Origin: Ichthyophthirius multifiliis
Taxonomy: Eukaryota; Ciliophora; Oligohymenophorea; Hymenostomatida
NCBI RefSeq assembly: GCF_000220395.1
Contig: NW_004086232.1
Span: 1 to 29,019 of the forward strand
Length of the DNA stretch: 29,019 bases
Reading direction: 5' to 3'
Under the pieces are notes generated by a model. It was not told where the DNA came from, did not search any database, and worked only from the letters and a program-made list of their open reading frames with translations. Each line of letters starts with the position of its first letter. Within the stretch, counting starts at the first letter, position 1. Of this stretch, positions 640 to 25,083 are shown piece after piece. Made by a program: the position numbers and the translations under genes.

Positions 640-925
640 TCATCTTTTTATACTATAAATATCATTTATAAATGAGTTTTAATCATTAAATTTATTATAT
701 TAATATTCAAGTTAAAGTTCATCCTCACATAAAAATTTTTGTATTTTTTTTCTTCTCTTTCTGTTCTTTAAGAAGGTGCTCCAGGATGAGATTTAGCTTT
801 ATGTCCACCGAGCTATTCCTTTTTAAAAACTTTTTTTGACAAATTGTGCATAAATATTGCTTTTAGCCGTTTAAAAATAATACTGAAGGAAGTATTTTTT
901 TCTGTTTTTTTATTTTTTTAGTCAT
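640..925 (-). CDS. Small C2H2 zinc-finger protein with GGHKAKSHPG tail, two single-base frame breaks
   Basis: Read on minus from ATG at 925 (context aaaATGACT). The product starts with a Lys-rich stretch (MTKKIKKQKK) and then QYLCTICQKKF. After a one-base shift in the A/T run at about 820-837, it continues FKKEQLGGHKAKSHPGAPSQ. Joined, the two parts give one canonical finger C-x2-C-x12-H-x4-H, with an LGGH motif like the QALGGH helix of plant-type fingers and a basic tail. A second one-base shift in the T run near 733-737 leads to an acidic end (CEDELQLEY...) that closes on TGA at 640-642. Adding two bases makes the span exactly 96 codons, which supports the model. It is probably a DNA- or RNA-binding nuclear protein. 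Both shifts lie in homopolymers, so assembly errors are likelier than a dead gene. The finger is clear; the C-terminal frame is less certain. Confidence 0.6.
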
Positions 926-3166: not shown

Positions 3167-3556
3167 TTTTTTTTTAAAAAAAAAAACTATTTTAATCTAA
3201 TGTTAAACAAATAAAATAATAAATTATTAATATATTAATTTTTCTTTTGTTTAAAAAAAATATTTTTTAAATTTAAAAGATAGTCTTTATAATATTTAAA
3301 TATATTCTTTTTAAAAAAATAACATTAGTATTTTTATAATTTTATTGTAATAAGTTAATATTTTTTTCTTTAATAAATGTAAAAACAAATGTATAATATT
3401 GTCTATGCAATAAAACTGAAAAAATTAATTGATAATATTTCATGTTTAAAAAAATAAAGAAATTAATTCTAAAGATTTAAATTACCCATTATATACTTTA
3501 AACATTTTAATTTAAATCATATTTACATCACTTTCTAACATTTTTATTATTTTTTT
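3167..3556. other. Intergenic, no feature seen
   Basis: A/T runs after the TGA of the Q/N-rich gene; no convincing frame on either strand. It leads into palindromic element copy 1. Confidence 0.4.
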
Positions 3557-3640
3557 ATAATATTTTTTTAAACACAATAATTAAAAAAAAATGATTATAG
3601 CATCTTTTTTATTTTATTGAGTTTTTTTTAAAAATATTAA
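3557..3640. repeat. Intergenic palindromic element, copy 1
   Basis: The left half carries T-run/A-run then ACACAATAATT. The centre is AAATGATTATAGCATC. The right half is TTATTGAG followed by T-run/A-run. It matches the other copies at about 9170, 13104, 17228, 20831 and 24988 in order and spacing of parts. The outer CTGTA/TACAG ends are degraded here. It lies about 160 bp upstream of the ATG at 3803. Confidence 0.55.
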
Positions 3641-3802
3641 AAAAAAAAAAAAATTAAATATTTTCAATTTTAACTATTAATTTGTTATTGTAATAAAAAT
3701 AATTTTTTTAAGTATCTAATTTCAATTTCATGATTTTCTAACATTTTTCAAGATTTTATTTTAAATACAAAAAAAAATTCGAAATTATAAAGTTTAATAA
3801 AA

Positions 3803-4310
3803 ATGGCATAAAGTCAATAAATATTTTAAATTTAGAGATAGAAATAATTTTAAAATAAAAATATATGGATAGGTTAAATAAATTAAAAGTTCAATAATAT
3901 CTAATACACAATTTGTATTTGAACTATTAAATTGCGTAAATTAAAAAGTTCTAGTATCTTTAAATAAAAATACCGTCAATATATTGAATAAAAATAATAA
4001 AAAATTGCTGAATTGTAAATTTAAGAAACAGAAATACAGTAAATTATCAAAGTTAATCTTACAAAAAATTAATTATTAAAAAATTTTTAAATATTTAAAA
4101 ATAGTTTTAATTTTAAAAATGATGATACTCAAATTAAAATATAATTAAAAACAAATATATTTTAAAAATAATTAAAAATTAGAATTTATAAACTTAACTA
4201 TTTTTTTTTTGAAAATGAGAAATAAAACCAGAGGAGAATCTAAAATATAGTATCCTATATATATTTTTTTTTTTTACAATATATTTAAAATTAATTAATT
4301 TTTTAAAATT
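3803..4310 (+). CDS. Probable small gene with interrupted frame, product unknown
   Basis: The region has more G/C than its flanks, and protein-like sequence is spread over more than one frame. From ATG at 3803 (aaaaATGGCA) the first frame gives MAQSQQIFQIQRQKQFQN. Another frame then reads well across about 3860-3965 (IISNTQFVFELLNCVNQKVL). The first frame resumes from about 3968 with helical, Gln/Glu-rich sequence (KYRQYIEQKQQKIAELQI). One intron plus one homopolymer indel, or two indels, would be needed to join them, and neither splice site is convincing. The 3' end is not fixed; the downstream frame closes on a TGA near 4310. The coiled-coil part is the best supported. Family not recognised. 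It could also be a decayed gene. Confidence 0.35.
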
Positions 4311-4869
4311 TGAGAAAAAAATTCTAGATAAAACTTCTATTTTAATAAATATAAAATAAATTATATATTAAAAGTAAAAATATTTAAATTAACATTGTTG
4401 TACTTAAAAAAAAAAATTAAGTTTTTATCAATTTTTTGAAAATCGAAGGAAAAAAAGTAATAATAAATAGATTTAAATTAATTATCTAATAATTATAAAG
4501 AAAATAATAATAATAATCTATTTATTTAAAAAAAAATATATATAAATAATTATCATACTAAAGATACAAAAATAAAAAAAAATTGATAATAATAAAACAA
4601 ACAAAAGATATTAAAGTAAAATACAAATAATTAGAAAGTTTTTTTAAAAAAATATATAGTGATTAATAATAATTATATTTATTATTAAAATAAAAACATT
4701 TTTGTCAAATTATTATTATTTATTTTTTGCTAATTATATAAATAACATATATAATATATGCAAAAACATTTATTCTTTTTTTTTCTATTATATTTATATA
4801 TAATATTTGTTAATTTTGTATTAGGTATATATTTTTTATGTATTTAATTTTTTTAAATTTTTATTATTA
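4311..4869. other. Intergenic, AT-rich
   Basis: Long A/T tracts with no supported frame or repeat family member. It includes the upstream region of the acyltransferase gene. Confidence 0.4.
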
Positions 4870-6256
4870 ATGGAGCGATAATAAGATATATCAACAAATA
4901 GATAAAGAAAAAGCTTTTTATAACAATTTAGAAGCGCGTTAGGATTATATTTATATTAATATCTTCCTCTAAATACTTTTATCACAGGATCATTTGCTAT
5001 TAATTATTTATCTAAAAAAGTTTTATTTAAAAAAAATATAATTATTACATTATTTTTATTTAAATTATATATATAAAGCTTAGATTTGGTAATAAAGGTA
5101 TAGCAGCATTTTTTGTTATGAATTAATTCTTTTAATAATTTGCTAGAAAATCAGATACATATCAGAAAATTTTTCAATATTTAGCACCTCATAAATATTT
5201 TAAAGGTTTTAATGTGCATTATGAAAGTCCTTTAGAAAAAGAAAAAATATTATTGCCAGTTTATTTTATTATTATTTTTTTTATAATATTTTTTTAATAA
5301 AGGTTCATCCACATAGTATTATGGCAATGGCTCTTTTATTAAATATGTATAGAAAAGAAGAACCTTTAAGTCAAGTAGTTTTTTGTGGATCACGAGTTGC
5401 TTTGCAAATGCCTTTGGCTGGGTATTTAATAAGATGGTCAGGATTAGTATCTGCTGATCCACAAAGTTTCTAAAGTTACATGTAAAAGGGAAAAAACATA
5501 TGCTTTATTCCAGGAGGATATGAAGAAGTAATTTTAATATATACTACAAAAAAAATAAAAATTATTCATTCCATAAATTTTATTAAATACTGATTTAATA
5601 ATAAAAAAAATGATATTAACTAATTATTTTTTAATTTAATTTTTTTTTTTATGCATTACAAAAATATAAAAGATTTTTTTAATTTGTAATGCAAAAAAAA
5701 AAAATCAATTTAAATATGTTTAGTAAAATAGTTTTTTTTTTTAAAATTAAGTTTTTGAAAAAAATTAATATTTTTTTTTATATGAACAACTAATATTTCC
5801 AAATTAATAAATTTTAAAAAGGCTAGTTTAACTTCTTAAAATTAATATAATTATTATTTAGAACATAAAGGCTTCATAAAATATGCAATGAAATATGGCT
5901 ACAAGATTAGACCTTGTGTAGCTTATAATGAAAATAAAGCTTATTAAACAATAGATAAGTTTTATAAATTCAGACTTTTATTAAATAAATTTAAATTCGT
6001 AGGAACTTTATTTTATTCTAAATATTTTTTAATTTTGTCTAATCCTAATATTAATATTGAAATGGTTGTTGCAAAACCTTTTGAAGTTCCATAAATTGAA
6101 AATCCGACTAAAGAATAAATTGAAGAATGGCATAAAAAATATATAGAATATGTAACTCAAATTTTTTATAAATATAAAAACTAATTTGATTCTAAAGGAG
6201 GAGATTTATATGGATATTAAAATGAATAATTAAAATAACTAAAACCAAAGTTATGA
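4870..6256 (+). CDS. DGAT2-family acyltransferase (mono/diacylglycerol acyltransferase type), four exons
   Basis: Exons 4870-5019, 5079-5258, 5303-5527 and 5822-6256 give 329 residues ending at TGA 6254-6256. Diagnostic blocks occur in order: a VHPHSIMAMALLLN block (family signature HPHG; residues 112-115 are HPHS here), a GSRVALQMPLAGYLIRWSG block, SADPQSF, then NICFIPGGYEE at the exon 3 end (residues about 176-185), then HKGFIKYAMKYGYKIRP and a C-terminal IEEWHKKYIEYVTQIFYKYK. DGAT2 enzymes transfer an acyl group from acyl-CoA to mono- or diacylglycerol at the ER or lipid droplet. The His of the HPH(G/S) block is the expected catalytic residue. Length fits the shorter family members, and the N-terminal membrane hairpin is short. 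Three introns are 44-294 nt; the last is unusually long. The exact acyl acceptor cannot be told from sequence. Confidence 0.9.
5528..5821 (+). other. Long intron of the acyltransferase gene carrying an inverted repeat
   Basis: At 294 nt it is about five times longer than the other introns in this window. It begins GTAATT and ends AAAAAG. It contains TGCATTACAAA (5652-5662) and its exact reverse complement TTTGTAATGCA (5683-5693), flanked outside by a T run on the left and an A run on the right. A stem of about 20 bp with one mismatch and a 20-nt loop could therefore form. This may be a small inserted element. Confidence 0.6.
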
Positions 6257-6316
6257 TTATATATTAAAAAATATATTTATATTTTAATTTTTATAAAGTA
6301 AAAGTTAATAAAGTCT

Positions 6317-6424
6317 TATTTTTATTTTTGTTTTTTTATTTTTATTTTTGTTTTTTTATTTTTATTTTTGTTTTTTTTATTTTTATTTTTTTTATTTTTA
6401 TTTTTATTTTTTTTATTTTTATTT
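6317..6424. repeat. T-rich minisatellite
   Basis: Tandem units of about 20 bp made of TTTTTATTTTTG blocks, clear for three copies (6321-6370) and degenerate afterwards. It lies just downstream of the acyltransferase stop. The remainder of 6425-6742 is plain AT-rich intergenic DNA. Confidence 0.75.
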
Positions 6425-6742
6425 TCTATTAAAACTTTATTTAATATGTTTATATATAAATTATTAAAATATTTTAATAAATGCATTTTTATTTTAAATT
6501 AATAAAAAATATTTTTCTTTATAAAGTGAAATATTTTTCTATTCTATTTAAGAAGTTATATACTTAAATTTTTTAATAGTTATATTAAATATATAAAAAA
6601 AATTAAAATTTTTGTATTTTAATTAAATATTCATATAAAATGAATTTAATTACAAAAATAATATATTTTATCTTGATATATATTTAATTAAATAATTTAT
6701 AAATTATAAAGTTGATAAATATAATTGACTTTCAAACTATTT

Positions 6743-7732
6743 ATGAAAAGTATGAGAAGTAGTAAATAAAGTTAAAACAAAGATTTAATTCTTAGCAATA
6801 AATTATCAGTTTCAAATTTAGAATATTGTAGGATATGCCATTAAATATAATAAGAGGATGACCCATTTATCAATAAATTTTGCTATTGTACAGGATCACT
6901 AAAAAATATTCATAGTTAATGTTTTTTGTTTTTAATTAATAAAGAACTGTAAAACGTAAATAAATTAAAGTTTAAAAGTTTTTAAATAAAAAAAAGATGT
7001 AATGCCTGCTTTTTCGAATATTAAATATATGGTAAATAGAAATATATTATAAATTAAATGATATTTACAAATTAAAATAAACGTTATATAATTCTTACAA
7101 TTATATCGTTATTAATGATTATATTGATAATAATTTTAATTATTTTTGATTTTTTTTTGGAAAAAAATACATTTAATTATTATATAATACAAATGAGTTT
7201 ATTATGTACATCAATATTTATAATAGTATTAATTATTTTTGGATTATTTTTTATATTTTTTAATTATTTAATTGTATATAAATTATATTATATTGAATTA
7301 AGAAGTATAATTTAAAAAGATAAAAACTATTTTGAATTAAATAAAAACATTCTTGTTTATAGAAAAAATAATAATAAAAATTAAAATAAAAATAATAATA
7401 AAAATAATAATAAAGATAATAATAATAATAATAATAATTATAATAATAATAATAATAATAATATTAATAATAATAAATAATTATAATTATAACTATAATA
7501 ATTTTTTCATATATCCATTTAAAAAAATTAAGTAATTAATTTTACAATTAATCATTAGAATTAAACTTCTTTTTAATAAATTATGAATTCTTAATAATAA
7601 AACAATATAAGTTAAATTTATAAAATTAATAATTTTTATAATAAATTATAATTTATAATTTGCTAAAATAATTAATAAAATCCTGAAGAAATGTTTTAAA
7701 TTTAATATAATAATTTTGAATAAAATAAATGA
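6743..7732 (+). CDS. RING-CH (RINGv, MARCH-type) membrane E3 ubiquitin ligase
   Basis: A single uninterrupted frame of 329 residues from ATG 6743 (in-frame TGA just upstream at 6713) to TGA 7730-7732. Residues 29-89 form a C4HC3 RING-CH: C29, C32, C47, C49, H57, C60, C86, C89. They sit in the blocks EYCRICH, KFCYCTGSLKNIHSQC and RCNAC. The GSLKNIHSQC block is typical of the family. Two strongly hydrophobic segments follow (about residues 115-137 and 148-175), matching the usual MARCH topology of an N-terminal RINGv and paired TM helices. The tail has a long Asn tract encoded by AAT repeats (about 7389-7480) and a Gln/Asn-rich end. Such proteins attach ubiquitin to membrane cargo at endosome, ER or plasma membrane. 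The spacing between C60 and C86 is somewhat long for the family. Confidence 0.88.
7389..7480 (+). repeat. AAT microsatellite inside the RING-CH gene (poly-Asn)
   Basis: A run of AAT codons with a few AAA, GAT, TAT and ATT interruptions, in frame with the ligase gene. It is translated as an Asn-rich linker after the second TM segment. Confidence 0.8.
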
Positions 7733-8093
7733 ATTATATAATAATACATGTAAAATATTTAAAAAATAAAAATCGAAATATATATTTATCTTAAAAACAA
7801 ATATATTTTTATTTATTTATAATTATTATATATATTAATAATATTTATAATATTAATTTTTTTTTTATTAAATATATGCTATCAGTTTTTTTTTTAATAA
7901 ATTTTTCTTTCATTTAAATTATTTTTTATATTAAAAATTTAATTTTACTTTGTCATTATTGTTTATTCATAATTTTTTTACAGCTTCATATTAAAAAATG
8001 TGATTTAGTTAAAAGTTTTAAGTATTTTTTTATTTTAAGATTTTTATTTATATTATTTTTTAGTTAAAGTTAAATTATTAATTTATTAATATT
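7733..8093. other. Intergenic, no feature seen
   Basis: T-rich DNA between the ligase stop and the hydrophobic ORF at 8094; nothing supported. Confidence 0.4.
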
Positions 8094-8555
8094 ATGAGTT
8101 TTAATAATTTTTTTATTTTTAATATTACAAATGATCTTCAATTTTATTTATTTTATTATTTTCTAATATATTATATTTTATTTATATATTTTTTTAATGT
8201 ATATTTTTTTTTCCTTTTAAGTCTATTAATACAGTATTTTTTATTTAATTTACATCTTATTTTTGTAATCTTTCTAAATATGTATCATTAGTATTCTATA
8301 TTAGCCACTTTTTTAAAATAAAATTTTAGGTTTTATCAAAATCTAGAGTCGTATAATTTTATATCAATTTCTTATATTTAATTGTAATTAAATTTTACAA
8401 TATTTTATTATTAATTTTTAGAATAAAGTTTTTAAAAATATTAGATTTTATATATTTAATAAATTAATAGTCATATAATTATTCATTTCTTATACTAAAT
8501 GATTTGCTTATTTTTACCTTTTTAATATCACTGGTAAAAGATCAGAAATAATTGA
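8094..8555 (+). CDS. Doubtful hydrophobic ORF
   Basis: From ATG 8094, code 6 gives 153 residues to TGA 8553-8555. The first 65 are Phe/Leu/Ile/Tyr-rich and would span a membrane two or three times. The rest (NFRFYQNLESYNFISISYIQ, ...) is less biased. T-rich DNA yields such hydrophobic frames by chance, so this is weak. The slightly higher G/C at 8300-8540 is the only point in favour. No family recognised. Confidence 0.25.
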
Positions 8556-8904
8556 TTTTTTTTATATATTAAATTAATTATTTTATTATTGAAAACTTAA
8601 TTTCTTAGACTATTTTAATTTATCTTCATAATTTAAAATGTTTTTTTTTAAAAAAATTTATAATTATTTAAATTAAATTTTAATTATACAAAAAAACTTC
8701 TCTTTATACTATTTTTTATTTGCAATTTAAAAATTATTAAAATTTAAAATATTTTCTTTAATATAAATGAAATTTAATTTATCGTGAATACATAAAAAAA
8801 ACATTATTTTAAATGACAATTCTTGGAAAAAATATATTAATATAAATAAAAAAAGTGATTAAACTTTATATAGTCATACAATTATTGTTTAAATTTAATA
8901 AGTA
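8556..8904. other. Intergenic, no feature seen
   Basis: AT-rich; no frame with convincing composition. Confidence 0.35.
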
Positions 8905-9114
8905 TCAGAATGACAACGACTAAAATAATAAAACATTTTATTATTTATACTTAATAAAGTAATATATAATCTACTTGAAGAAACATGTAATATTAGTATT
9001 AGTAATAGATTAAAAAATCAGTTCATAATAATCAAAATTTAATTTTTTTAAGATATTCAATTTTGCATTAAGTTTAAAGAAACTAAAGTGAAGATTTTTT
9101 AAATCATTATTCAT
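8905..9114 (-). CDS. Possible 69-residue protein, unknown
   Basis: Minus-strand frame from ATG 9114 to TGA at 8905-8907: MNNDLKNLHFSFFKLNAKLN, then a stretch with ELIFQSITNTNITCFF and a Gln-rich end. The composition is more balanced than chance A/T frames. The ATG lies about 55 bp from palindromic element copy 2, an arrangement shared by other short ORFs here. No homologous family is recognised and no intron is needed. Confidence 0.3.
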
Positions 9115-9169
9115 TAAAAATTTCACCTATTGTAAAAAATTATTTGCTCTGATGTTTTTTTTTATTTTT

Positions 9170-9255
9170 CTGTATTTTTTGTTAAACAAAAACTCAATAT
9201 AAAAAGGGCATTTATCAAATTATTTATAGAGTTTTAAAAAAAATTAAAGAAAACT
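9170..9255. repeat. Intergenic palindromic element, copy 2
   Basis: Left half CTGTATTTTTTGTTAAAC then AAAACTCAATA. Centre TAAAAAGGGCATTTATCA. Right half TTATAGAG, TTTTAAAAAAAA, then TTAAAGAAAAC. The halves are inverted copies of each other, and the centre resembles the ATAATGTCCC centre of copy 4 read on the other strand. Confidence 0.65.
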
Positions 9256-9625
9256 AAAAAAAAAAGCATTAGAAATGCAATATAAAAAATATAAAATGAT
9301 AAATAAATTATTTAATTAATGAATGGAAATACAAAAATATAAATACAATCACAAAACTTTTAAATTAATAGTAAAAAAAATATAAATATTTAAAAATATA
9401 AGACTAAAATACAAAATTTAGTAAATTTTAAATTTAATAAAGATATAACACTTTTATAATAATATTTTAAAAGAAATTAATAATTGAAAAAAAAGAAAAA
9501 ATAGATAAATTTTTATTTATATATATTTTTTATAATTTATTTATTATAAACTTTTTTTATTTTTTTTGAATTCTAATAATTTATATTTTACATTATTCTA
9601 CTTTTTCTTTTTCTTATAATTTTTT
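9256..9625. other. Intergenic between element copy 2 and the channel gene 3' end
   Basis: AT-rich tracts; presumably contains the 3' UTR of the minus-strand channel gene. No coding frame supported. Confidence 0.4.
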
Positions 9626-12600
9626 TCAAATCTTAATTTCATTCATTAAATTTTCAATTTCTTATAAATTCTCATATTTATTATTATCTTTTTTATCATG
9701 ATTTATTTATAGAGTTTAATAATTTAATTAAACTTTAACATCAGATGCAAATTTGCTCTATTAATTGTGATAATCAATATTTTATTTTTGAAACATCTTT
9801 TATTAGGAAAGCTATAAAAAAACAAATGTGATATAATTTATAAATAAACTATTATTTTTTACTATTGATTATCTAAATTCTTAAGCATTCTATATTTTTT
9901 TAATATATTATTATCGTCTTGTTTATTATGCAGTTGCAGGATTAATTAAGTCATATTACTTTAAAAAACATATATAAAAAACTAAATATATAATATTTTA
10001 TTATAAAATAATAAAAAAATGTTTAATTTTTAAATTTTATATAAACTTTTTAATTATAATTACAATTAGTATTATATTATATTATATTATATTATATTAT
10101 ATTATATTATAATTATATTAATTTATTATTACCACTTTAAATCCTTATTCTACTTTATTAAAAGTTTCAACATTCGGTATTCCTTCTTTTATTTTAAACA
10201 TTTTTTCATTGAAATATTACATAGGTAATAATGCATGAATAATTCCTATTATAATACCTGCAATTGCTATTTTCGGAGCTTGTGTTTTCTCATCTGAAAT
10301 ATAAAGGAAAAAAACTAAGTTAGATATACTAAATATAGGCAATATTATCTCAATCATTTCTGTCATTTCTATTGAAAGTTCTTGCCCTTATTAATATTTT
10401 ATTGTTCTTCTGTTTAAAATATTATACTATTTTTTTTTTATAATTTTTCTTTAAAAATTTAAAATATTACCTTATCAATCCAATACTATAAGAATATAGT
10501 TATAAATGAATATAATATACAAATAGGTAAAATAGGTCCGTAAAAAGCTGTCATATACATCGTATTTATTAATGTACAATATCTAATTTCTATAGGATAT
10601 ATCGGATCCTCATATAATCTTTTAGCATTTTAAAATTTAAATATTTAAAAAAATAATTTATATTTTTTAAACTCATTTAATTATGATTAAGTTAAAATAG
10701 ATTTTAAACCCTTTTTTCTTGTAATTTTCGTTTCAATTTTTTTACGTAATATCCAACATCTAAAGCTTAAGTTACAAATGATATTACCATATTCGAAATA
10801 AAAACATAATTTTAATTTTATGCTAACCCACCTTTTTAATTTAAAATAAATAAAACAAAAATTAATTTTGATTATTTATACCATTTCCAAATATTTTCAA
10901 GAATTTTGATTTATTATTATTAGTTATTACTATTTCAACTAAAAAAGTAATTAAAGAAGTATTACAAAACTAAGCTATTGATATTTTTTTAGCTTAACTA
11001 ATATTAAATTTAGTAATAGTAATATGCCCTTCTTTTCTTAAAAAATTATATAATGTTAAAATAATAAATTTATAATTTTTTAAATTAAAAATACTTAGCA
11101 ACTTCAACTAAAATAATCTTCAAAACTTCATTAAAAATACTAATTACTACAGAAATAGCAATACCAACTATTTAAACGATTGTTTAATTATCATTATTAG
11201 AACTAGTATTTAAAGATTTTTAAGCTGTAATAAGTCCATAAAGTAATCCAAAACAAGCTCCTAAAACTAAAAGTGAAAACAAAGTTCCTAAAAGATTTCT
11301 TTATGATCTTTGTTTATCTGACAGTTTTAAATTTTCCCAAAAAATATCAGTAGGTTAAGGAGCTTATTTAATTACAAGCTAATTCCCATGATAAACTAAA
11401 GGTTTAACTCCTTTTATTTTCATTTAAATAAAACTACAATCATATAAATCTATAATTTCTTCCTTTTCTTATTCTGTTTATAAACTTACAAAAGCCCATC
11501 CACTAAAGTATTTTTCCATAAATTATTTTCCCTTTCCATCTGCAAATTTAGCTTCTAAAGTTTCTTTATTTTTATCAGCAATATAAACTTCTTAATTTAC
11601 TTTTTCTAATGACATACCTTGAGGATATTATCCTTTATTATAAAAATAAGATAATAATTTTTATTTTTTCAGAATTTTTTATCTCTTATATTTATGCAAA
11701 GTCTTCAATTCATCCAAATCATAACATAAATTAACTTTTACAATATTTAGCTTTTTTCCTCCTGGAAATGCATTTTTTTCCAAAAAATCTTTTAAATCAT
11801 CGTCATAATCATCATTCAATGCATTTTCAATTTTTTTTGGGATATTATTTATCATAATTGTATAATCATTTACAGAAATATCCGCAACATCACATTCTAC
11901 ATCTGTTTTTCTTTGAACATATCGAAAATATTATAAAAGAATTATTATTATAAATATTGAAAATAAATTCAAAGCGCTTTATATATCCATTAATTAATTT
12001 TCATTTCTTTTATTTCCTAATGAATATTTTGTAATCCAATTATTTGAATCACATTAATCTTAGTCAACTTTTAATTTTTATTATTCACAATATTAGCCTT
12101 ATTTAAATTTATTTATTTATTTAGTTTATATTTGTATTTACCAATAGTTCCATTTGTTACTGTGTTAAATATTCCACTTACGCCAAACAAAATAATTAAA
12201 AACATCAAACAAAATTTTATATAAGTAAAAAATAAAGGAAAACCACTACCTAAAATGATAATTAAGTTAAATCGCACCATAAACTAAGTCTTATATTTTC
12301 TACTCTTCTGCTACAACATTTACAATATGAAATTTAAGAATTTTCTGAGTTATCTTCTTTTCCAATAATAGAAGCTTACTTAATCAATATTTTTTTATAA
12401 AAATAATAAAATCGATATATATTACGCTATGTTATTTTGCTTATTTAAAGTCTGCAGGTATTTAATCAGGATCATAAGTAGATTCGGTTTCAGAATCTTT
12501 CTTTTATATTTATTAATTTTTAATACTTTCGTATTATTAATTTTATTATTGTTTTTTATTTGTTGTTATAAAAACATTTATTATACTTTCATTATTTTAT

Positions 12601-12959
12601 TTGTTTATGTTTACTTTAGGCGAATTATTTGTTATTGGTCTTTTTTAATTTTTTGAAGAACTCGTCGCATTTGTTATAAGATTTTTTTATTTTTGATTAT
12701 TTTATTCATCATTTAAGTTTTTTTGCTCGATTTCTTGTATAAGGTCTTCTATTTTCAATATTTCATCATTTTGATTTTATTTTTATATTACAAGAGCACC
12801 AATATTCTTTTTTTTTATTAAAACTACACTGTTTTTGTTTATATTTGGTTGCTTTTTATCAGCGCCTTTTTTTATTTTATTTAATTTAAAAATTTGATTA
12901 ATAACAAATAACTATATAATAATTATTTTACCACTAATATTTATCTTTTTTGAAGCCAT
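9626..12959 (-). CDS. OSCA/TMEM63/CSC1-like (DUF221) mechanosensitive cation channel, ten exons, two one-base breaks
   Basis: Exons on minus: 12959-12932, 12865-12426, 12378-12142, 12097-11095, 11036-10882, 10831-10673, 10618-10471, 10426-10133, 9958-9863, 9811-9626, ending TGA. Introns are 44-66 nt except 10132-9959 (174 nt). The product is about 915 residues. Family blocks occur in order: RLSLWCDLTQLSF then GSGFPLFFTYIKF (TM), NNWITKYSLGNKR, a TM, a soluble loop with SVNDYTIMINNIPKK and KYFSGWAFVSLQTEQEKEEI, QPTDIFWENLKLSDKQR, then many TM helices with HITITKFNISQAKKISIAQF, LTQSQLNE, LYEDPIYPIEIRYC, FLQYWIDKYNILNRRTIKY and DLINPATAQQ. These channels open on membrane tension or osmotic stress and pass Ca2+. 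Frame breaks of one base sit in a T4 run (12252-12255) and an A4 run (10725-10728). Exon phases close exactly if one base is added at each. The N-terminus before TM1 is a long low-complexity tail. Confidence 0.88.
10071..10112. repeat. ATTAT pentanucleotide microsatellite in intron 8 of the channel gene
   Basis: About eight perfect ATTAT units. It accounts for much of the extra length of this 174-nt intron. Confidence 0.85.
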
Positions 12960-13103
12960 TTTTAGTATTATTTAAAATATCTTTCTTTAATTTTTTTTTC
13001 TTAGTTAATTATTTAACTTATTGTATTTTCATATAAAAAAATAAAAATGAATAAAATAATATAATAATATAATATTTTTTTTACATATTGACTTTTTATT
13101 TTT

Positions 13104-13194
13104 ATTTTTAGTTTAATTTAGTATGAATATAAAGAAATAGAAAAAATGGAATTAACCTTTATTTTGTTCAATTGATTTTTTTAAAAAAATACAG
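13104..13194. repeat. Intergenic palindromic element, copy 3 (one half decayed)
   Basis: Right half is well kept: GTTCAATTGA, TTTTTTT/AAAAAAA, TACAGAAAC. The centre is AAAAATGGAATTAACC. The left half (TAGTTTAATTTAGTATGAAT) is degraded. It lies 145-235 bp upstream of the channel gene start on the minus strand. Confidence 0.5.
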
Positions 13195-13618
13195 AAACAA
13201 AAAAAAAATAAGAAAAATTATAGTTAATACATTAATAAAACTAAAATATTAAAGTTTCATTTAATAAAAAAAAAAATAAAAGTAAAAATTAAATATAATG
13301 ATAAAATTTTAAATTAAATAGTTTCGAAAATTTAAAGGTTTTAATTTATGTTCTATAAATAAAGTATTTTATTTTCAAAGATTAATTAATAATTTATATT
13401 ATACTAATGAATAAAAAATTATTCATGGAAACAAATTCAAAAAAAAAAGATTATTTGACGTTTTGCAATAAATACTATATATATTTTTATTAATTAAAAT
13501 AATATAAACAAAACATAAAAAAAAATTATTAAATTAAATTGATATAAAAGTTGATCAAACATGATAATAGATAAAAGTTTATTTGTATATAATTTATTTT
13601 ATTTTTGATATTTTATTT

Positions 13619-13653
<35 letters not shown>

Positions 13654-14085
13654 ATTTAACCTAAATATAAAATTATCCTAGATAATTATTACTAATATAA
13701 AGTTAATTATTCAATTCATATTTATTATTATGTAGAGTATTATGAATATATTTTAAATAATAGTTTAGATTTAATATTTTAACAATAATATAAATATTTA
13801 TTTATTTTATTACTAGATTATACAGTTTTTTTTATATTTTTAATTTATAATTATTCCAGATATTTAAATTACAATACATAATAAGGAAAAATTTTAATAC
13901 AATTAACTAAACTAATATATAATATAATTTAATATTTATCTAAATAGTTTTTAGAATTTTTAATTGATTAATAATTTGAAATATTATATTTTTAATATTT
14001 ATGTTTTAAATAAAAAAATTTATATTAATTTACATTTATAATTATATATAAATTTATATTTATATATCCACAGTTTTTAAATATT
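13195..14085. other. Gene-poor AT-rich region with TA microsatellite
   Basis: Contains (TA)n at about 13623-13650 and otherwise plain A/T sequence. No frame with protein-like composition was found. It separates the channel gene's upstream region from the 3' end of the next minus-strand gene. Confidence 0.5.
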
Positions 14086-16440: not shown

Positions 16441-16466
16441 ACACAGTAAATTAAATCTCTATCAAC

Positions 16467-16790
16467 TCAAAATGGGAATTGAAAACATTTATTATAGTTA
16501 GTTTTTTAAAAATATACTAAATGCCTTTGATCTATTTATAAAAAGATTTGGAATAAAATTATTTATAAAAATTCTTATTATACTAATATATATTTTTCAT
16601 TTTAAATTTAATATTTATAATTCATTTTTATTTAAATTATGTTTATAAAAAGAATTAATTTATTTTTTAATGATTGATAGGACCAGTTCTCTTCACATTT
16701 TTTGTTTCGCCTTAAAGGCCATATGATTATTTCAATTAAACAAAAAAAGAGCAGGTATAAAATAATTGGAATTTACAAATTATATATTTT
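16467..16790 (-). CDS. Possible small membrane protein or upstream exon
   Basis: A minus-strand frame closing on TGA at 16467-16469. It contains a hydrophobic helix (IPIILYLLFFCLIEIIIWPL) followed by basic and Cys-containing sequence (RRNKKCEENWSYQSLKNK), then Gln/Ile-rich residues to the end. The G/C content around 16675-16760 is clearly above the flanks. No ATG is evident in frame, so it may be an exon of a larger gene, possibly the neighbour at 14086-16440, or a relic. Family unknown. Confidence 0.3.
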
Positions 16791-17227
16791 TATATACAAA
16801 TATTAAATTATCTTTTTTTTATTTTAATATTGGTATTTTAATTAGAAATTATATTTTTTAATAAATTTATTAATATATTTATTATTTAATATTTATTAAA
16901 ACTAAATTTTATTTATTTTTATTATATTATTAAATTATATTTAATTATATTTTTTAATTTAAAATTTTATAATTCCAAACTTCCTTAAATATAAATATTA
17001 ATTAAAATATTGTAAAACTAAATTTTTTAGTTTTCCTTTTTAAAATATTAATACATTATATTTTTTCTGATATTTAAATATATAAAATTAATAAAAATGA
17101 TAGAGTATTATTTTTATTTAAATATTAAAATAAAAAAAATAGACTTTGTAATATTTATATTTTGTTAGAAACTTTATAGTTTTAATTATAAAATATATTA
17201 TTTTTTTATATTAATTATTTTATTTTT
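16791..17227. other. Intergenic, no feature seen
   Basis: A/T tracts between the minus-strand genes and element copy 4; no frame or motif supported. Confidence 0.4.
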
Positions 17228-17325
17228 CTGTAGTTTTTTTTTTAAAAAAAAATTCAATAATCAGAAAAAATGGATAATGTCCCTCTTATTATTTATTGAG
17301 ATTTTTTTTAAAAAAAATAAATAAA
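17228..17325. repeat. Intergenic palindromic element, copy 4 (best preserved)
   Basis: Both halves are clear. CTGTAG plus T10/A9 plus TTCAATAATC forms the left half. The centre is AAAAATGGATAATGTCCC. The right half is TTATTGAG plus T/A run (T8/A8) plus TAAATA. It sits about 80 bp upstream of the ATG at 17407 and between divergent genes. Confidence 0.7.
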
Positions 17326-17406
17326 AATATATATATTACCAAGTATATTATTTTTAAAAAAACAATTAAAATATATTAAAAATTTTATTTAATTTTTTAA
17401 TAAAGC

Positions 17407-19447
17407 ATGCTAAAATAAATGTAAAATTTAGATAAAGACCAAATAATTAATAACTAAGATTGCTACATACAAAATGAATATTAAAATAAAATAAAATAGG
17501 ATATCCACAATAATGAATAAAAATGTATATGAAAACTAATTATTACATTATTTATATTTAACAAAAAATTTAAATTATTATTTATTAAGTTTACGATTAA
17601 TATAAGAAATAAATATTAGATAAATAATAAATCAAAATTTAAGTAAAAAAATGTTTTAAATAAAGATTTTAATATATAATTTTTTTTCTAAAAAAATATA
17701 TTTAAAGAATGAAATCAAGTTAATATAAAAAAGGATTATATAAGATCATAAATATGATCCTATAATTACTGGTATCTTTTTCTTAGAATAACCAATTAAA
17801 AATGGTTTGACTTTTTATTTCGATAAACTTTTTTAAAATAAGTAATAAGTATTATAATATCTAAATAGTGAATATAAAATACTAATAAACTCTTAAACAA
17901 ACACAAGAGTAGAATCTGAAATAAAAAAATTAAAACTTATAATAGATAGTCTTGAAAATGACATAATTTTTCTTTAGCCTTTAAATAGTTTATATTACAG
18001 TTTCAAAATAGATTTATAAGAAAAAGATACAAGAAAATATCCAAATAATGAATTTTATTTTCATGTAGATTTTGTTTTTAATTTACCAATAAACGTGGAA
18101 AAAATAAGAATAAAGTATGGTTTTTTTCATAAAAATGAAAAACCCTTATCAAATAGATCTACTAATGAGCATTATATAGATTTTTTTGAAAACAAAGGTA
18201 TCAAAAAATACATATCAAATAATAAAAATAATAAAGGCTTTATTAAAGAATAAGAACATATTAAATTTAATGAAAAATTTAATGATATTTTTATTTATTT
18301 TTAATTAGTTATTTTTTTTAAATAATAAAGACTACCTGAAAGTGGTGGTTGGACCATGCATTAAATATATAATAATAAAAACGAATTAGAAACAGGATAG
18401 TTTATAGCACCTTTTTACGATGATAGACTCAAATATAGTTATTTATTTGAGAATTATTAAGAAAATTTAAATTAAAGTAAATTGTGTTTTAGTATTATAC
18501 CATTCCTGGAAGAAAACAGTAATTTGATTTTATAAAATGATTATTACTAAATTAATAATTACAATTTTGGATGCTTACACGTAAAAGAATAAATAAATAT
18601 ATAAGATAAAAAAAAAAAATTATTAAAATAATAATAAATAAAAACTAATGATTATTCAACATTAAATAAATTTTATGATGAAATTTTCGACGAAAAGCCT
18701 AAACCTTTTTTATTAGAGTATTTTGTTTTTTATTATTAAATATAATAAATATAAAAAATATTAGTATTAAAAATGGAGAAATATAAAATAAATATATTTA
18801 AGCCAAATTATTTTCAAATTGCAAACTTTAAGAAATTTAAGAATAAGTATGAAAATAAAATTTTTAATATAAAATATTCACTTTTATAATTTAATAAATC
18901 TATAACTTTTATATATTAATCATTTTTTAATACTTTAATCAATTTGTTTATTATTTATAATATTGATAATAATTTTATTTATATATATATTCTTCACATT
19001 ATCATTTAGTTTTAAATGCAATTTAATTTATTAGTTATCTTAATTTTGATAGTTTATTCTTTCGATATTTTTAGTTTGATAAAATTTTGTTCATTATATA
19101 ATTTTTTACCTAAATTTTATGTAAATTACTTCTAGTTTAGAGATATTTTAATCAGTTTGTTTATCAATTATTTAATATAAAAATTCCTTTTTTTAATTGC
19201 ATTTATATATTTTTTAAGCTATATTAATTTGATTATATATGACAATCCCAACAATATTTTTATAAATATTAATTTTTGGAATAGTTATAAAAAGGTTATA
19301 ATCTTTTACTCAATTTTATATTACTTTCAGGGTTTCAACAATAAAAATTAACATATTAATTTAATATTTCTTTCCTAATTATTAATGAATTTAAGAATAA
19401 AACTAATAATAAAAGCTCAAATATTTTTTCATTAACAGATAAGTTGA
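17407..19447 (+). CDS. Multi-pass membrane protein of unknown family, three exons
   Basis: Exons 17407-17524, 17590-17642 and 17708-19447; two 65-nt introns; TGA at 19445-19447; 636 residues. An in-frame ATG at 17419 is an equally possible start. The N-terminal 60 residues are polar (MLKQMQNLDKDQIINNQD). Then comes a large soluble part with recognisable secondary structure: KYDPIITGIFFLEQPIKN, NEFYFHVDFVFNLPINVEKI, RLPESGGWTMHQIYNNKNEL, PFYDDRLKYSYLFENYQ and NYNFGCLHVKEQ. The last 200 residues hold about five hydrophobic segments (INLFIIYNIDNNFIYIYIL, NLLVILILIVYSFDIFSLI, FLFLIAFIYFLSYINLIIY and others). The layout, a large globular region followed by a C-terminal TM bundle, resembles several receptor or transport-accessory families, but no signature was matched. 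No frame break was found. Confidence 0.7.
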
Positions 19448-20686
19448 TACAAATTTATTAAGAATTTATTTATTTTTCTTTTTTATATTTAAATAATATA
19501 TTTATTAAATATTAAAACATAATTCTAAATAATTTTCTATTATTAACTTATATTGAAAAAGATTAATAATATTAAAATTACTATTAAATCTCTGTTTATT
19601 AATGTTTTATTTTTAGCATTTAAAAATTTATTTTTTTAATTATAAATAAACATAAAATAAAAAAGTAAAGAAATTTAAATAAATAAAATAATATTAAAAA
19701 TAATAGAAAATAAATAAAAATCTTATATTTGTATAAGATTAAAATTAAATTATTAATATATAATATTAAAAATTAAATATTTCATGTTTTATTGTTTTAA
19801 AAGATAATATAATTTTAAATATAAATTATATTAAAATAATAAATGTACTCGAAAATTGAAAAAAATAAATAATTTATTATATATTTATTAAAATTAATAA
19901 TTAACATAGTTAAAAAAATCATTTATATATGCAGAAAAAAAAATTATGAAAAAATAATAAAAAAGGTAAAAATTATTATTAAGAAAGTAAATATAAAATG
20001 TATTTATATATTTTAAAAAAATTTAATATAAATTAATTTAAATAAAAAATATAAATATATTATTTTTATTATTATATAAAAAAATGTTTTTTAAAATATA
20101 TAATTAGATTGTTTAAAATATATATATATATTTATATATATATAATATATTTATATTATTTTATTTTTATTTTTTTCATATTTATTTTATAATTGTTAAT
20201 ACACTTTTTATAAATAATTTTATACAAATTAATATATTAATTTGAAAATATATCAATATATACAACTATAAACTTATAATTATTTTTAGCTTTAAAAATA
20301 TTTTTTTGATTTTGTATATTAAAGAAATTTTTTTTTTTCTTCTTTTCTTTATTATTTACATATTTATACATCAAATATATTAATATTTTATTTTTTATTA
20401 CCAAAGATATATCTAGATAATTTTTTATTAGGTTTTTTATAAATTTGATAATTTTTTTTTTTATTTATATAAAAATATCAATTTTATCTAATTTATTATC
20501 TTATTAATTTTAATATTATATCTTTTATAATTGTAATATATTTGCCCTTTATTATTATATTTATTATACCTTTGAAATATTATTTTTTATTTTCTTATTT
20601 TTAGTAAACATTAGTTTTATCTACTTTATCAAATCAAGTATATTAAAAATGAAAAAAGATAATAATTTAAGCAAATTATTTTTCTT
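19448..20686. other. Gene-poor AT-rich region
   Basis: Simple A/T sequence with local TATATA tracts (about 20120-20150). No frame with non-random composition was found on either strand over about 1.2 kb. Confidence 0.5.
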
Positions 20687-20700
20687 GTTTCTATAGAAAC
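20687..20700. repeat. Perfect 14-bp palindrome
   Basis: GTTTCTATAGAAAC equals its own reverse complement and is unusually G/C-containing for this stretch. It could be a dimer binding site. It has no near gene except the short ORF at 20884. Confidence 0.4.
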
Positions 20701-20774
20701 TTACTTATTTATGTTTTTAAATAATATAAAATTCATATTACAGATAAAAATATTTTAAATATCTTAATAAAAAA

Positions 20775-20855
20775 AGATTTATTAAAATAAAGTAAGTATA
20801 TATTAAGTCTTATAAGGTCTTGTTTCGTTCACTGATTTTTTTTAAAAAAATACAG
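20775..20855. repeat. Intergenic palindromic element, copy 5 (right half clear)
   Basis: The right half GTTCACTGA plus T8/A7 plus TACAG (20831-20855) is almost identical to that of copy 3. The left half and centre (TATTAAGTCTTATAAGGTC) are decayed. It lies just before the short ORF at 20884 and about 200 bp from the transposase relic. Confidence 0.5.
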
Positions 20856-20883
20856 AAAAAATAATAAATTAAAAAATAAAAAT

Positions 20884-20994
20884 ATGAAAAATATGAAAAA
20901 GTGGTATATAATCATTTTATTTTTTATCATATATGTTACTAAAATTGTTTTTGTATAGTATCAATTAAAAATAATTAAAAAAATATTAAAATGA
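20884..20994 (+). CDS. Tiny ORF, 36 residues, signal- or TM-like
   Basis: ATG 20884 (second ATG 20893) to TGA 20992-20994. The product MKNMKKWYIIILFFIIYVTK has a basic N-terminus and a hydrophobic core like a signal peptide or single TM segment, then a short Lys-rich tail. It begins 28 bp after the TACAG end of element copy 5. It could be a small membrane peptide, the first exon of a longer gene, or chance. Confidence 0.25.
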
Positions 20995-21044
20995 TTATAA
21001 ATAAAAATAAATAAAAAATATTGTTTTTTCTTATCTATTTTAAT

Positions 21045-21235
21045 ATAAAATTAATTTTTCCTATATTTTCCAAACAATATTATTTTTTGGAACAGCCCAT
21101 TTATTTTAAATTGTATTAAGATCATGAGATTTTGTTGAACATTTTAATAAATCATTTTTATTTTTTTAAATAAATTGATAGCTTTTAATAATTTATTATG
21201 TCTCTTGAATAAATATTCAATTAAATATAAAAAAA
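21045..21235 (-). pseudogene. Relic of a Tc1/mariner-type transposase C-terminal end
   Basis: On minus, one frame reads NDLLKCSTKSHDLNTIQNKW then AVPKNNIVWKIQEK. This matches the hallmark LLxWPxxSPDLNPIENxW...LKxxI at the third catalytic Asp of Tc1/mariner DDE/D transposases. SPDLNPIEN has decayed to SHDLNTIQN. The catalytic Asp (of HDLN) remains. The upstream Asp-Asn...His block is not recognisable, and an in-frame TGA lies near 21231. Only the last 60 or so residues are left, so the copy is inactive. Confidence 0.6.
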
Positions 21236-21420
21236 GTAAGGTAATTAATATTATGAAAAAAAAAAATGTAGAAAGGTGTAGAAAAGATTTAAATATGATA
21301 TAAAGGGTAGAAAAAGGTATAAAAATATAAAAATTAATAGAAATATGAAGAAAGAAGTTAAAAATTTATAAATAATAAAAAAGAAGGATATAAAGGAGTA
21401 TAATTTAGGTTTAAAAAAGT
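21236..21420 (+). repeat. Purine-rich tract with TAGAAA/GGTATAAA-like repeats
   Basis: A strongly strand-asymmetric A/G tract. Degenerate units such as GTAGAAAGGTGTAGAAAAG and GGGTAGAAAAAGGTATAAAA recur about every 10-30 bp. It is unlike the T-rich DNA around it. No protein-like frame. Confidence 0.45.
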
Positions 21421-21714
21421 ATTTGTAAATGTAAAAATTTAATATATATTATTATAAAAATATAAAAATAATAGAAATGTTTAGAAATTTATATTAATAT
21501 AAAATATAAAATAAATTTACTCCAAATATAAAATTTTATAAAAAAATAAAAATATATCTTGTAAAATTATTTTTTTGTGGAAAACTAATATAATTGTAAA
21601 AAAGATATTTTAGTAAATAAATAATTTAAAATCTTAAAATTTAAAAAATTAATTAAAATAAAAATAAAAAAATAAAATAAAAATATGTTTTTGTATTATT
21701 TTTTTTATAAAATT

Positions 21715-21815
21715 AATAAATAATAAATAATAAATAATAAATGATAAAAAATAAATAATAAATAATAAATAATAAATAATATATAATAAATAATAAATAA
21801 TAAATAATAAATATT
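21715..21815. repeat. TAATAAA heptamer tandem repeat
   Basis: About fourteen units of ATAAATA-type heptamers with a few variants (ATGATAA, ATATAATA). The remaining stretch up to 22166 is plain AT-rich upstream DNA of the next gene. Confidence 0.8.
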
Positions 21816-22166
21816 ATAAACAGATTTCTAGTTTTTTATTTATAATTTATTTTTTATTTTTAATAAACTTTAAATTTAAATTAATTTTTATGAAATAACT
21901 AAAAGTTTAATTTATTAATTAATTATTTTACAATAAATTTGATTATTTTAAGTTTTTTATAAATTCATATATATTCATATAAAATTATTATATGTTTCAT
22001 ATTTTATTTAAAATCTTTAATTAAAATATATAAAATATATATATTTTATCTAAATTAAGTTTAAAAATATTTTAATTATTTAAATATAATCTTTTTTTCA
22101 TGTGAATATAAATTAAAAAAAAATTAAAAGGAATAAATATATTAAAATTTAAAGAAAAATAAAAAA

Positions 22167-23506
22167 ATGTAAGTTGAAGCTCTAGTAAAATTAAAATATA
22201 CAATAATCGGTGTATCCTTAACTATTTTATCGTAAACTGTATATAAATACTTAAAATATAAAAGCAAATAATTAAAAAATTATGAAACACCAGAAACAAA
22301 TCAATAAGTAAATGTATAATCTTAAATTTTTCCTGTTTATGCATCTGAAGAGTATTAAAAGATAATAAAAGAATAATTGATAAGAAACATATAATTTTTC
22401 GGCGAAGAATCACAAAAAAAAATTTAAGAAAGTTATATTATAGTATTTGGGGTTGGTGGAGTAGGATCTCATTGTGTATCTTCATTAATTCGTTCAGGAG
22501 TATAAAAAATAAAAATAGTTGATTTTGATAGAGTAACTTTATCTTCATTAAACAGACACGCTTTTGCAACACAAGGAGATGTAGGCCATTCTAAAGTACA
22601 ATGTATAAAGGATTATATTTAAAGGATAAGCCCTCATTGTGATGTAGAAATATTTGAAGAATATGTAACAAAAGAAAATGTGGCAAAGTTTTTTTCTGAA
22701 TAAAAAAAGAAGATTATGTAGTCGATTGCATAGATAATATTGATGCTAAAGTTGCTCTTTTAGCTTATTGTAAGAATAATAATAAAAAAGTTATTTCTTC
22801 AATGGGTGCAGGAATGAAGTCAGATCCAACAAGGGTTTAAATAAGGGACATTTCAGAAACTACTTATGATGACCTTTCAAGGGCTGTAAGGATTAAGTTA
22901 AAAAAATTGGGGATTACTAATGGAATAAAAGTAGTACTTAGTGTTGAAAAAAGTTCGAAAGAATTACTTCCACTTTAAAGACATCAAGAAGATAAGCCTG
23001 ATGAGTTCAAAGTTTTTTCAAATTATAGACTTAGAATAGTTCCTGTATTAGGTACTATGCCAGCTATATTTGGATTAGCATTAAGTTCTTATATTTTGTG
23101 TGATTTAGCAGGTTAGCTTTATTAGCCGTATTTAATTGATGATGTAAAATAAACTAATTATGCATAAATATATGATAAAATTCACTAAGAAGCAAAAAAT
23201 AATAAAAAATAATTCCTTATGGATATTTCGGATGTGTATTTGGTCGTGAGGGAAGCTTTTTAATGGAAAGATCTTATTTAAGGAAAAAAGTAGGGAAACT
23301 TACTCTTAGCAAGATGGAACCCTGAAGGAGAATTTGAAGGGTAAAATTTAGTTTTAATGAATGCTGCGGATGTCAAAAAACATTTAACTTTCAAAAATTT
23401 TCAGGAAGTTAAAGAATATTATAACTAAGAGATTTTTAAAAGAGTTGAAGAAAAAAAATATATATATTTAGAATATTTATAAAAAAATAATATAGTCTAT
23501 AAATGA
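22167..23506 (+). CDS. tRNA threonylcarbamoyladenosine dehydratase (Tcd1/TcdA type, ThiF/E1-like), one homopolymer frame break
   Basis: ATG 22167 to TGA 23504-23506. The span is one base short of 446 codons plus stop, because of a break in the A7 run at 22702-22708; one extra A restores EQKK..DYVVDCIDNIDAKV. The fold is the ThiF/MoeB/E1 adenylating family: ATP-binding glycine loop VFGVGGVGSH (about residues 93-102), acidic strand IVDFDRVTLSSLNRHAFATQ (the SSLNRHA block is typical of eukaryotic Tcd proteins), DCIDN, then SSMGAGMKSDPTRVQIRDIS and a P-rich VPVLGTMPAIFGLALSSYIL segment. The enzyme cyclises t6A37 to ct6A in ANN-decoding tRNAs using ATP. Residues about 8-25 are hydrophobic, consistent with a membrane anchor as in the yeast proteins, which sit on the mitochondrial outer membrane. 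A C-terminal extension of about 100 residues follows the core. Confidence 0.88.
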
Positions 23507-23524
23507 TTTTAGCTTTTATATTTT

Positions 23525-24247
23525 TCAAAAAAATATTATATATTATTATTTTAATATTATAAATAAATATATTATATTAATTAATTTAATATTTACAATA
23601 ATCTATTAATTTTGATTATTATATAATATTAAAATTTATATTTGTTAAATTTTAATATAAAATGAAAAAAATTATTTTATTTGTGATTAAATTAAAACAC
23701 ATTTATTTTTATATACAATATTTTGGATAATTTTTGTTGTAAAAAAAATTAAAAAGTTTAATTTATGATTAATTGAAATTATATCAACAAATTTTTTTGA
23801 TTTTTTAAGTTTTAGTAAAATTTTAATCATTTCCTAATTAAAAATGTATAATTAGTACAATTAATAATATTTTTCATTTTTATTAGTTAATTGGTTTATA
23901 TATTTTCGTAAGATTAGTAATTATTTTTTTAAGATAAATTTTTAAAAATTGATGCATATTGATTTTATTTTATCCATTGAATAATACTCTTAAATTTAAT
24001 AAAATTCATAATTGCAGGAAAGCTTACATTTTTATACACCTTTTAAAGAGCAAATTCTTTTTTTATGATCTATTTCATAAAAACTTTTAAATTCTTTAAA
24101 ATATTCAGTAGTTATTTCATAAATATATGAAAAACTAAAAACGTTACATTTTTCAATTTTTTATTTTAATATAATATTTTTTTTTTCAAAAGGATGTTTT
24201 TTTATAATAGTTAATACAATATATGATTCCAAATTGTCAAAAATCAT
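23525..24247 (-). CDS. Possible gene, product unknown, converging on the dehydratase gene
   Basis: Minus frame from ATG 24247 to TGA 23525-23527, 240 residues. The first half has balanced composition: MIFDNLESYIVLTIIKKHPF, EITTEYFKEFKSFYEIDHKK, RICSLKGVQKCKLSCNYEFY. The second half becomes Lys/Ile/Asn-rich, and the last 60 codons look like non-coding A/T. Upstream of the ATG the same frame still reads well (KISQNVTAPQYIEQKQKNQT) to about 24330, then meets TGA. One extra A in an A8 run would join it to MHEESKKK, so the true start may be further right. A remote likeness to cullin C-terminal sequence was considered but is too weak to claim. The stop overlaps nothing but lies 18 bp from the dehydratase stop. 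Confidence 0.4.
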
Positions 24248-24349
24248 TTGAAAAGTTTAATTTTTTTACTTCTATTCTATATACTGAGGAGCAGTAACAT
24301 TTTAAGAAATTTTTAATAATTTTTTGTCTTTTTTTTACTTTCTTCATGC

Positions 24350-24987
24350 ATATAAAAATCATATTTTCAAAAATAAAAAGAATATTTAAAAAATTCAAAT
24401 TTTTTTGATTAAAATTTTAGTAACTTCAAATTATTATGCTTAGTATTTACATAAATTTATTCATATTTTTTAATTGTTTTAATAATATATGACAATATAA
24501 TTTAAAATATAAAACATACTTATATTAAAATAATTACATAAATATTATAAATAGAGTTAAATATTAATATTTTTTTAAAATTATTTTAAAATAATAATAT
24601 TCCTATTTTTTTATTTTGTAAATTAATTATATTTGCATAATATTTTATTTATGTTAATATAATAAATAAAAATATCATTAATCTTGTTCTTATTTTCTGA
24701 GAAATATTTTTGACAATACAAAATAATTATTTTCTGATTCAAAATATTATTTTTTGATAAAATGAAAAAATTATTTTATAACTTTAAAAAATTTGAAAAA
24801 AAAAATCTTTGAATTTTACTCTTTTTAAAATATTTTACATTAATAAAATTTAAAAATGACATCATAAAAAGCAAAATTTTAAAATCAACATTAAAGAAAA
24901 ATAAATTCATGCCAAAATGAAAATATTATAATTTGAATATACTTTTATTAGATATATATTTTACTTGTTCATAAAAATTTTAATTTT
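24350..24987. other. Intergenic, no clear feature
   Basis: AT-rich. Short protein-like scraps on minus near 24350-24430 may belong to the preceding gene; otherwise nothing is supported. Confidence 0.35.
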
Positions 24988-25083
24988 TTGTAATAATTTT
25001 TTAAAAAAATAATTGATAATAATAAAAATTGATAACGACATTATTTTATTATTGTTGAGTTTTTTTTAAAAAAAAAAATACAG
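24988..25083. repeat. Intergenic palindromic element, copy 6
   Basis: Left half TTGTAATAA, T-run/A-run, TAATTGATAA. Centre AAATTGATAACGACATTA. Right half TTGTTGAG plus T8/A11 plus TACAG. Its last bases run straight into ATG at 25084. Confidence 0.65.

Follow-up and report, generated by a model that had tools for sequence, protein, structure and literature searches.

We consider it very likely that six palindromes in a 29,019-nucleotide stretch of Ichthyophthirius multifiliis DNA (contig NW_004086232.1, C605:1-29019 in the assembly searched; hereafter the window, at its full length) are decayed copies of one dispersed repeat that carries no gene, most plausibly an old palindromic family resembling miniature inverted-repeat transposable elements (MITEs). 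The copies form a single bounded family. They are palindromic, dispersed through the assembly and absent from predicted coding DNA, and they have no tie to gene ends or gene direction. The original prediction, made from the letters of the window, had offered two explanations, namely an undescribed MITE family or a conserved promoter or insulator palindrome. Bounded inverted ends, copies dispersed in unrelated flanks, TA at most ends and the missing tie to genes favored the former; the latter was not supported by where the copies lie relative to genes.

Six copies in the window and their relatives in the genome

A profile was built from 39 loci, every one outside the window. Forty loci had been fetched (36 matches to the full-length copy L009 and four exact half-sites), and L058, which held no match, was left out. 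Applied to the window, the profile recovered exactly six places scoring 19.2-35.6 bits (Table 1), with the seventh place at 6.7 bits. These are the six copies originally predicted, including copies 3 and 5, whose profile matches each reveal the one decayed half that had been claimed. The independence of this result is limited by the chain of searches, which started from the copy first noted at 3557, and by the seed profile that centered the outside loci, whose 18 sequences included window copies 1, 2, 4 and 6; copies 3 and 5 had no part in the seed.

One rival explanation is that poly-T and poly-A runs and AT-rich words recur by chance in an extremely AT-rich genome. The sequence of the element is indeed simple, and only 13 of the 20 places fetched from a first genome DNA search (queried with window copy 1; 62 rows) were confirmed at their center by the profile of outside loci (E < 0.001), leaving seven unsupported (L014, L016, L020, L023, L025, L026 and L028). 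Against chance, none of 40 window shuffles of equal dinucleotide make-up, the kind of check by which the original prediction had proposed to be refuted, reached the copies' scores (0 at 18 bits or above, one at 15 or above). The exact half-site (TTGAG, T/A run, TACAG) occurred 49 times genome-wide versus once for the pattern reversed, and the same words in scrambled order occurred 0 times genome-wide and once when reversed. Similarly, the outer arm word TTACAGAAAAAATAAAAA alone was found at 23 genome places versus 0 in the reversed control. When the fetched DNA was reversed, nine places matched the profile up to E = 1, and the only one below 0.2 (L011, 7.5e-4) lay on the reversed element itself. 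The shuffles and exact-word controls refute a chance origin, to which we give a negligible probability, and they bear out the earlier judgment that words in this order would not easily arise by accident.

The genome searched is a 44.96 Mb assembly of 937 contigs, which is part or another version of the published macronuclear assembly (15.9% GC, 8,096 genes, 34 Mb of intergenic DNA, 2,274 contigs; PMC3341644). The full-length query L009 matched 41 distinct places from the best 40 of 342 candidates. A second full-length query matched 40 distinct places from the best 40 of 160, with 15 places common to both. Together with the exact half-sites, these searches gave at least 92 distinct places, so that further copies, whose absence would have refuted the original prediction, were indeed found across the genome. 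The total rose to at least 107 places on 84 contigs once arm-word places were added, with five of the 19 fetched arm-word loci unconfirmed.

Copy density was estimated from the flanks of the 20 fetched stretches (~190 kb), which held seven further copies at E < 0.001, or about one per 27 kb, although one of the seven (the second L018 copy, L064) is also in the profile and so not independent. Extrapolation yields about 1,650 copies in the assembly (Poisson limits 670-3,400). The expectation of very many copies genome-wide thus held in order of magnitude, but the estimate is lower than the density of the window implies, as six copies in 29 kb represent a local excess over the genome average.

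Some copies lie close together. L011 and L018 each contain a side-by-side pair, its two copies being ~60 bases apart in L011 and ~115 in L018, and the arms of the second L011 copy depart from the family identically on both sides at four sites. L079 and L080 are near-identical and ~2 kb apart, a local duplication that includes the element, with a run of N just past one of them. L076 and L086 are near-identical ends of contigs C300 and C887, suggesting an unmerged overlap or two haplotypes.

Anatomy of the element

Alignment of the 39 loci revealed a bounded stretch from TATATTAC to GTAATATA. Mean information per column was 0.39 bits in the left end, 0.58 bits inside and 0.45 bits in the right end, versus 0.16 and 0.09 bits in the flanks. 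The element has inverted ends (TTACTTGTT...AACAAGTAA), is a near-total inverted repeat and contains no coding sequence. It measures 134-157 bp in the 11 of 63 copies for which both ends were found at threshold, L039 among them with about 149 bp. The palindromic form first described was therefore correct, while the length given with it (~90-95 bp) is that of the inner part of the element.

The outermost part of the left arm is TTACTTGTT, with TA before it, and next comes TCATATT. Further inward lie T-rich sequence, CTGTAA, a run of T/A, CTCAATC and lastly A-rich sequence. The opposite arm is the reverse complement, running from the center outward through a T-rich stretch, GATTGAG, a T/A run, TTACAG, an A-rich stretch, AATATGA and AACAAGTAA, followed by TA. 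In better copies the center resembles GG.C..GAAAAAATGGATAATG.CC, which gives the element a direction. The exact center word occurred at three genome places (copy 4 included) and at 0 in the reversed control, too few for statistics. In copy 4 the direction is taken from this word, at 17264-17279; the profile match itself has a minus-strand score, as can happen with so nearly symmetric an element.

Among the 11 copies with both ends, TA stood directly outside the left end in seven, the right end in 10 and both ends in six, counts that are ambiguous in such AT-rich flanks. In L039, where the end counted was an outer look-alike, the end at its true place is likewise preceded by TA. By form and spread the element is a MITE: it is short (below ~500 bp) and without coding sequence, has defined inverted ends and exists in many dispersed copies.

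Position relative to genes

None of 26 copies (E < 0.001) overlapped predicted coding DNA by more than 10%. All six window copies lie outside predicted coding DNA, in keeping with the claim that they are always intergenic. For 25 copies the flanking genes were tandem in 13 cases, convergent in six, divergent in five and unknown in one, and all 65 gaps of the same DNA divided into 36, 16 and 13; these classes are rough, since coding sequence by the gene finder makes up 46% of the fetched DNA, whereas the published annotation puts it at 21% of the genome. L015, inside a predicted gene span, was counted among the 13 tandem cases. The nearest gene end lay a median of 445 bp away, versus 420 bp for random non-coding points. 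That nearest end was 5' in 12 and 3' in 13 of 25 copies, with one further copy inside a gene span.

A promoter active in both directions, a terminator shared by neighboring genes or an insulator would also stay out of coding DNA, as the 26 copies do, and T/A runs are common in AT-rich promoters. Such a function is disfavored because the copies ignore gene direction and gene ends: their gap classes match those of all gaps, their distance to gene ends is like that of random points, and 5' and 3' ends are approached alike. In addition, an estimated 1,650 copies stand against 8,096 annotated genes. We regard this explanation as highly improbable, and the promoter or insulator half of the original prediction was not supported. 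The copy positions are what insertion plus loss from exons gives, unlike those of a promoter, terminator or insulator.

RNA structure

A family of hairpin RNA genes, or a small-RNA precursor, is another way to account for the palindromes. L009, a good copy, forms a long hairpin when folded with DNA parameters (z = -6.5, equaled by 0 of 200 shuffles), as this would predict, but the fold of window copy 4 is weak (z = -1.7, equaled by 14 of 200 shuffles), and arm symmetry is expected of a DNA palindrome anyway. RNAalifold found no consensus pair in 23 copies (alignment A1, 23 of 25 sequences, window copy 5 and L021b being left out). A covariance model made from the alignment contained no base pairs, and Rfam and tRNA scans of the window returned no match. 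A structured RNA family was rejected on the missing consensus pair and the absence of an Rfam match in the window, and we consider a hairpin RNA gene family or small-RNA precursor very unlikely.

Inner motif and arm symmetry

Across 126 arms, the outer G/C bases were kept at 0.61-0.71 and the inner ones better (G at 0.86 and 0.91 in TTGAG, C at 0.74 and G at 0.84 in TACAG), in arms that came from searches favoring the inner words. These arms derive from 63 copies, L064 being left out as a duplicate of the second L018 copy. Places were therefore also chosen by the outer arm word alone. Four of the 23 lie inside copies already included; the remaining 19 were fetched, of which at most 17 are independent (L076/L086 and L079/L080 being paired). 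With the arm word masked, the rest of the element was found at 14 of the 19 (E < 0.003). ATTGAG with at most one mismatch was present in 11 of the 19. TTGAG was intact in just four of them, so that the inner conservation seen in the first set stems in good part from the way in which its copies were found.

These data bear on a further alternative, in which the palindrome is a conserved cis-element (an origin of replication, a boundary free of nucleosomes or an attachment site in the amplifying macronucleus) to which a dimeric factor would bind and selection would keep the palindrome and its T/A runs. The better-kept inner bases would fit such a role, as would changes common to both arms of one copy (see below), and spacing in the tens of kilobases would suit origins. 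Against it, TTGAG survives in just four of the 19 places chosen by the outer word, some copies are half-decayed (in the window, copies 3 and 5) and position is random relative to genes. Defined outer ends and a recurring center are a better fit to a single inserted ancestor. A conserved cis-element therefore appears unlikely to us.

Transposase candidates

DDE_3, a Tc1-like transposase domain, has eight matches in the assembly, all above the curated cut-off (Table 1). Two further profiles, DDE_Tnp_1_7 and DDE_1 (PF13843, PF03184), matched nowhere, an uninformative result since their controls also matched nowhere. L072 contains a nearly whole copy of the palindrome (1-134) ~900 bases from its DDE_3 match, and L070 has a weaker partial match to the element (2068-2160; E = 2e-4, profile positions 5-95 of 160) ~390 bases from its own. 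The 10.5 kb read at four of these loci thus hold one or two copies, no clear excess over a density of one per 27 kb, or of one per 17 kb once the window is counted. For these four loci, a DDE_3 gene with the element as its ends was rejected as a candidate, as neither the nearby copy in L072 nor the partial match in L070 ends the gene.

At L070, a 43-bp inverted repeat (81%) that differs from the element brackets the DDE_3 match, and there may be a Tc1-like element of ~1.3 kb at this place in the macronuclear assembly. The 2011 genome paper reports that no clear contamination with known ciliate transposases was detectable (PMC3341644).

Evidence weighing against a transposed family

Several observations count against a MITE origin. 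The bases beyond the ends are themselves inversely symmetric (ATA...TAT), which makes TA indistinguishable from an extension of the inverted repeat, and the element ends, set in very AT-rich flanks, gave no unambiguous target duplication. No transposase with the element's ends was present at the four of eight DDE_3 loci read (those on C852, C262, C16 and C65; 10.5 kb). Because matches to a full-length query are mostly 67-80% identical, with a few short pieces up to 91%, there is no sign of recent movement. 

The arms present a further difficulty. The two arms of one copy shared a changed base 53 times, versus 25 +/- 4 when arms were re-paired among copies and 29 +/- 5 when the re-pairing was confined to similarly diverged copies (0 of 1000 reached 53). 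This excess is not predicted by simple independent decay. Among changes present in no more than 6% of arms, four were shared versus 2.4 expected, which is not significant (67 of 300 shuffles). Symmetric sub-masters could be the source of the shared changes, as could template-switch correction of quasi-palindromes, a process that occurs in other organisms.

A composite explanation would have a MITE family escape elimination and persist as more than 1,000 somatic copies, its arms kept symmetric copy by copy through template switching or selection, with some copies now serving the macronucleus in its amplification, perhaps as sites of replication or as boundaries that melt easily. We consider this unlikely.

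Other features of the window

The window contains one open reading frame of at least 110 amino acids under the standard code versus 198 of at least 100 amino acids under the ciliate code. Two genes in it are of the ThiF family and CSC1/OSCA-like, respectively, and its repeat list is dominated by a tandem array, rich in T, whose units resemble TTTTTATTTTTGTTTT (Table 1).

Table 1. Coordinates of element copies, DDE_3 matches and other features (bare numbers are window positions)
Feature	Position	Strand	Profile score	Remarks
Copy 1	3528..3653	.	28.2 bits, E 1.5e-7	first noted at 3557
Copy 2	9140..9269	.	35.6 bits, E 8e-10	left arm: exact half-site, minus strand, 9170-9197
Copy 3	13090..13213	.	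20.7 bits, E 3e-5	left arm decayed, right arm good
Copy 4	17196..17342	+	28.2 bits, E 1.5e-7	near-complete
Copy 5	20815..20870	.	19.2 bits, E 9e-5	right half alone recognizable
Copy 6	24959..25090	.	19.9 bits, E 5e-5	right arm: exact half-site 25055-25083
DDE_3 match	C852:58152-58571
DDE_3 match	C262:31251-31679
DDE_3 match	C16:56101-56409
DDE_3 match	C65:35929-36207
DDE_3 match	C830:51891-52055
DDE_3 match	C300:156966-157277
DDE_3 match	C521:19834-20037
DDE_3 match	C860:14947-15294
Inverted repeat at L070	L070:400-442 and L070:1699-1741			brackets DDE_3 match L070:1252-1680
Copy pair in L011	L011:4934-5240
Copy pair in L018	L018:4927-5329
L079/L080	C656:37110-37380, 39176-39446			local duplication
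CSC1/OSCA-like gene IMG5_137940	10133-12959	-		frame 10938-12383 (minus) 97% identical to IMG5_137940 protein
ThiF-family gene	22167-23494	+
Tandem array	6316-6430			T-rich

Origin and significance

We conclude that the family is real and new, though its kind is known, and that a palindromic MITE in decay is the most likely identity. It probably belongs to the Tc1/mariner-like, TA-inserting class, because TA lies at the ends and transposase genes of this type (DDE_3) occur in the assembly. In the order of events that we infer, a transposase acting in trans would have bound the inverted ends and placed copies at TA sites in the germline, duplicating the target. Elements that were not recognized for elimination, or that landed harmlessly, would have passed into the macronucleus. 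Copies in exons would have been lost, and those between genes would now be decaying under strong AT bias.

Ciliates normally remove transposon-derived DNA from the somatic nucleus, and the chief interest of the family is that a high-copy, MITE-like repeat has been retained in a ciliate somatic genome. Its copies lie in gene-bearing contigs of an assembly published as macronuclear, for which, according to the genome paper, some germline contamination is not excludable (PMC3341644). The copies were not classed as internal eliminated sequences (IESs), which are absent from the macronuclear genome. A published model argues that selection acts against MITEs incapable of excision and that these do not reach fixation (PMC9942856, Fig. 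6 legend). An old family of perhaps at least 1,000 copies between somatic genes, with none in predicted coding DNA, is a test case for this model. Either the copies have survived because they sit where they do no harm, or the family was once excised and excision was later lost. The family also adds repeat annotation to a genome whose intergenic DNA amounts to 34 Mb (PMC3341644).

Comparison with known systems

Stowaway-like MITEs, those of the Tc1/mariner kind, are short and non-coding, with inverted ends, many dispersed copies and TA at their ends. The Ichthyophthirius element resembles them in being short, non-coding and dispersed between genes, with inverted ends bordered by TA. It differs in being almost wholly palindromic, in the age of its copies, in a target duplication that is unprovable here, and in that no transposase with the same ends was found at the four DDE_3 loci read.

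No description of the family was found in the literature on Ichthyophthirius, which was judged mostly by titles, with subscription journals mostly outside its scope. Mentions of palindromes in the portion of the genome paper drawn on here concern ribosomal DNA (rDNA; PMC3341644). The rDNA palindrome is likewise macronuclear and from the same organism, but it is a 16.6 kb amplified rDNA chromosome rather than a dispersed short repeat (PMC3341644). The SIGAR paper reports long TA repeats at Ichthyophthirius rearrangement junctions, and contains no word beginning with palindrom- and no mention of an inverted repeat (PMC7586852).

Closer parallels come from other ciliates. BogoMITE of Blepharisma (8,000 copies) is also a high-copy MITE in a ciliate, and two other Blepharisma families are called palindromic (PMC9942856). 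The Blepharisma families are germline-limited and lie in eliminated DNA, whereas the Ichthyophthirius family is in the somatic assembly (PMC9942856). BogoMITE is ~388 bp long and recently spread, in contrast to the old family described here, and its parent Bogo has a TAA/TTA duplication (PMC9942856). The mobile IES family FAM_2183 of Paramecium is similarly a probable MITE without a reported partner; it is eliminated by definition, whereas the Ichthyophthirius copies stand in a macronuclear assembly (PMC9942856).

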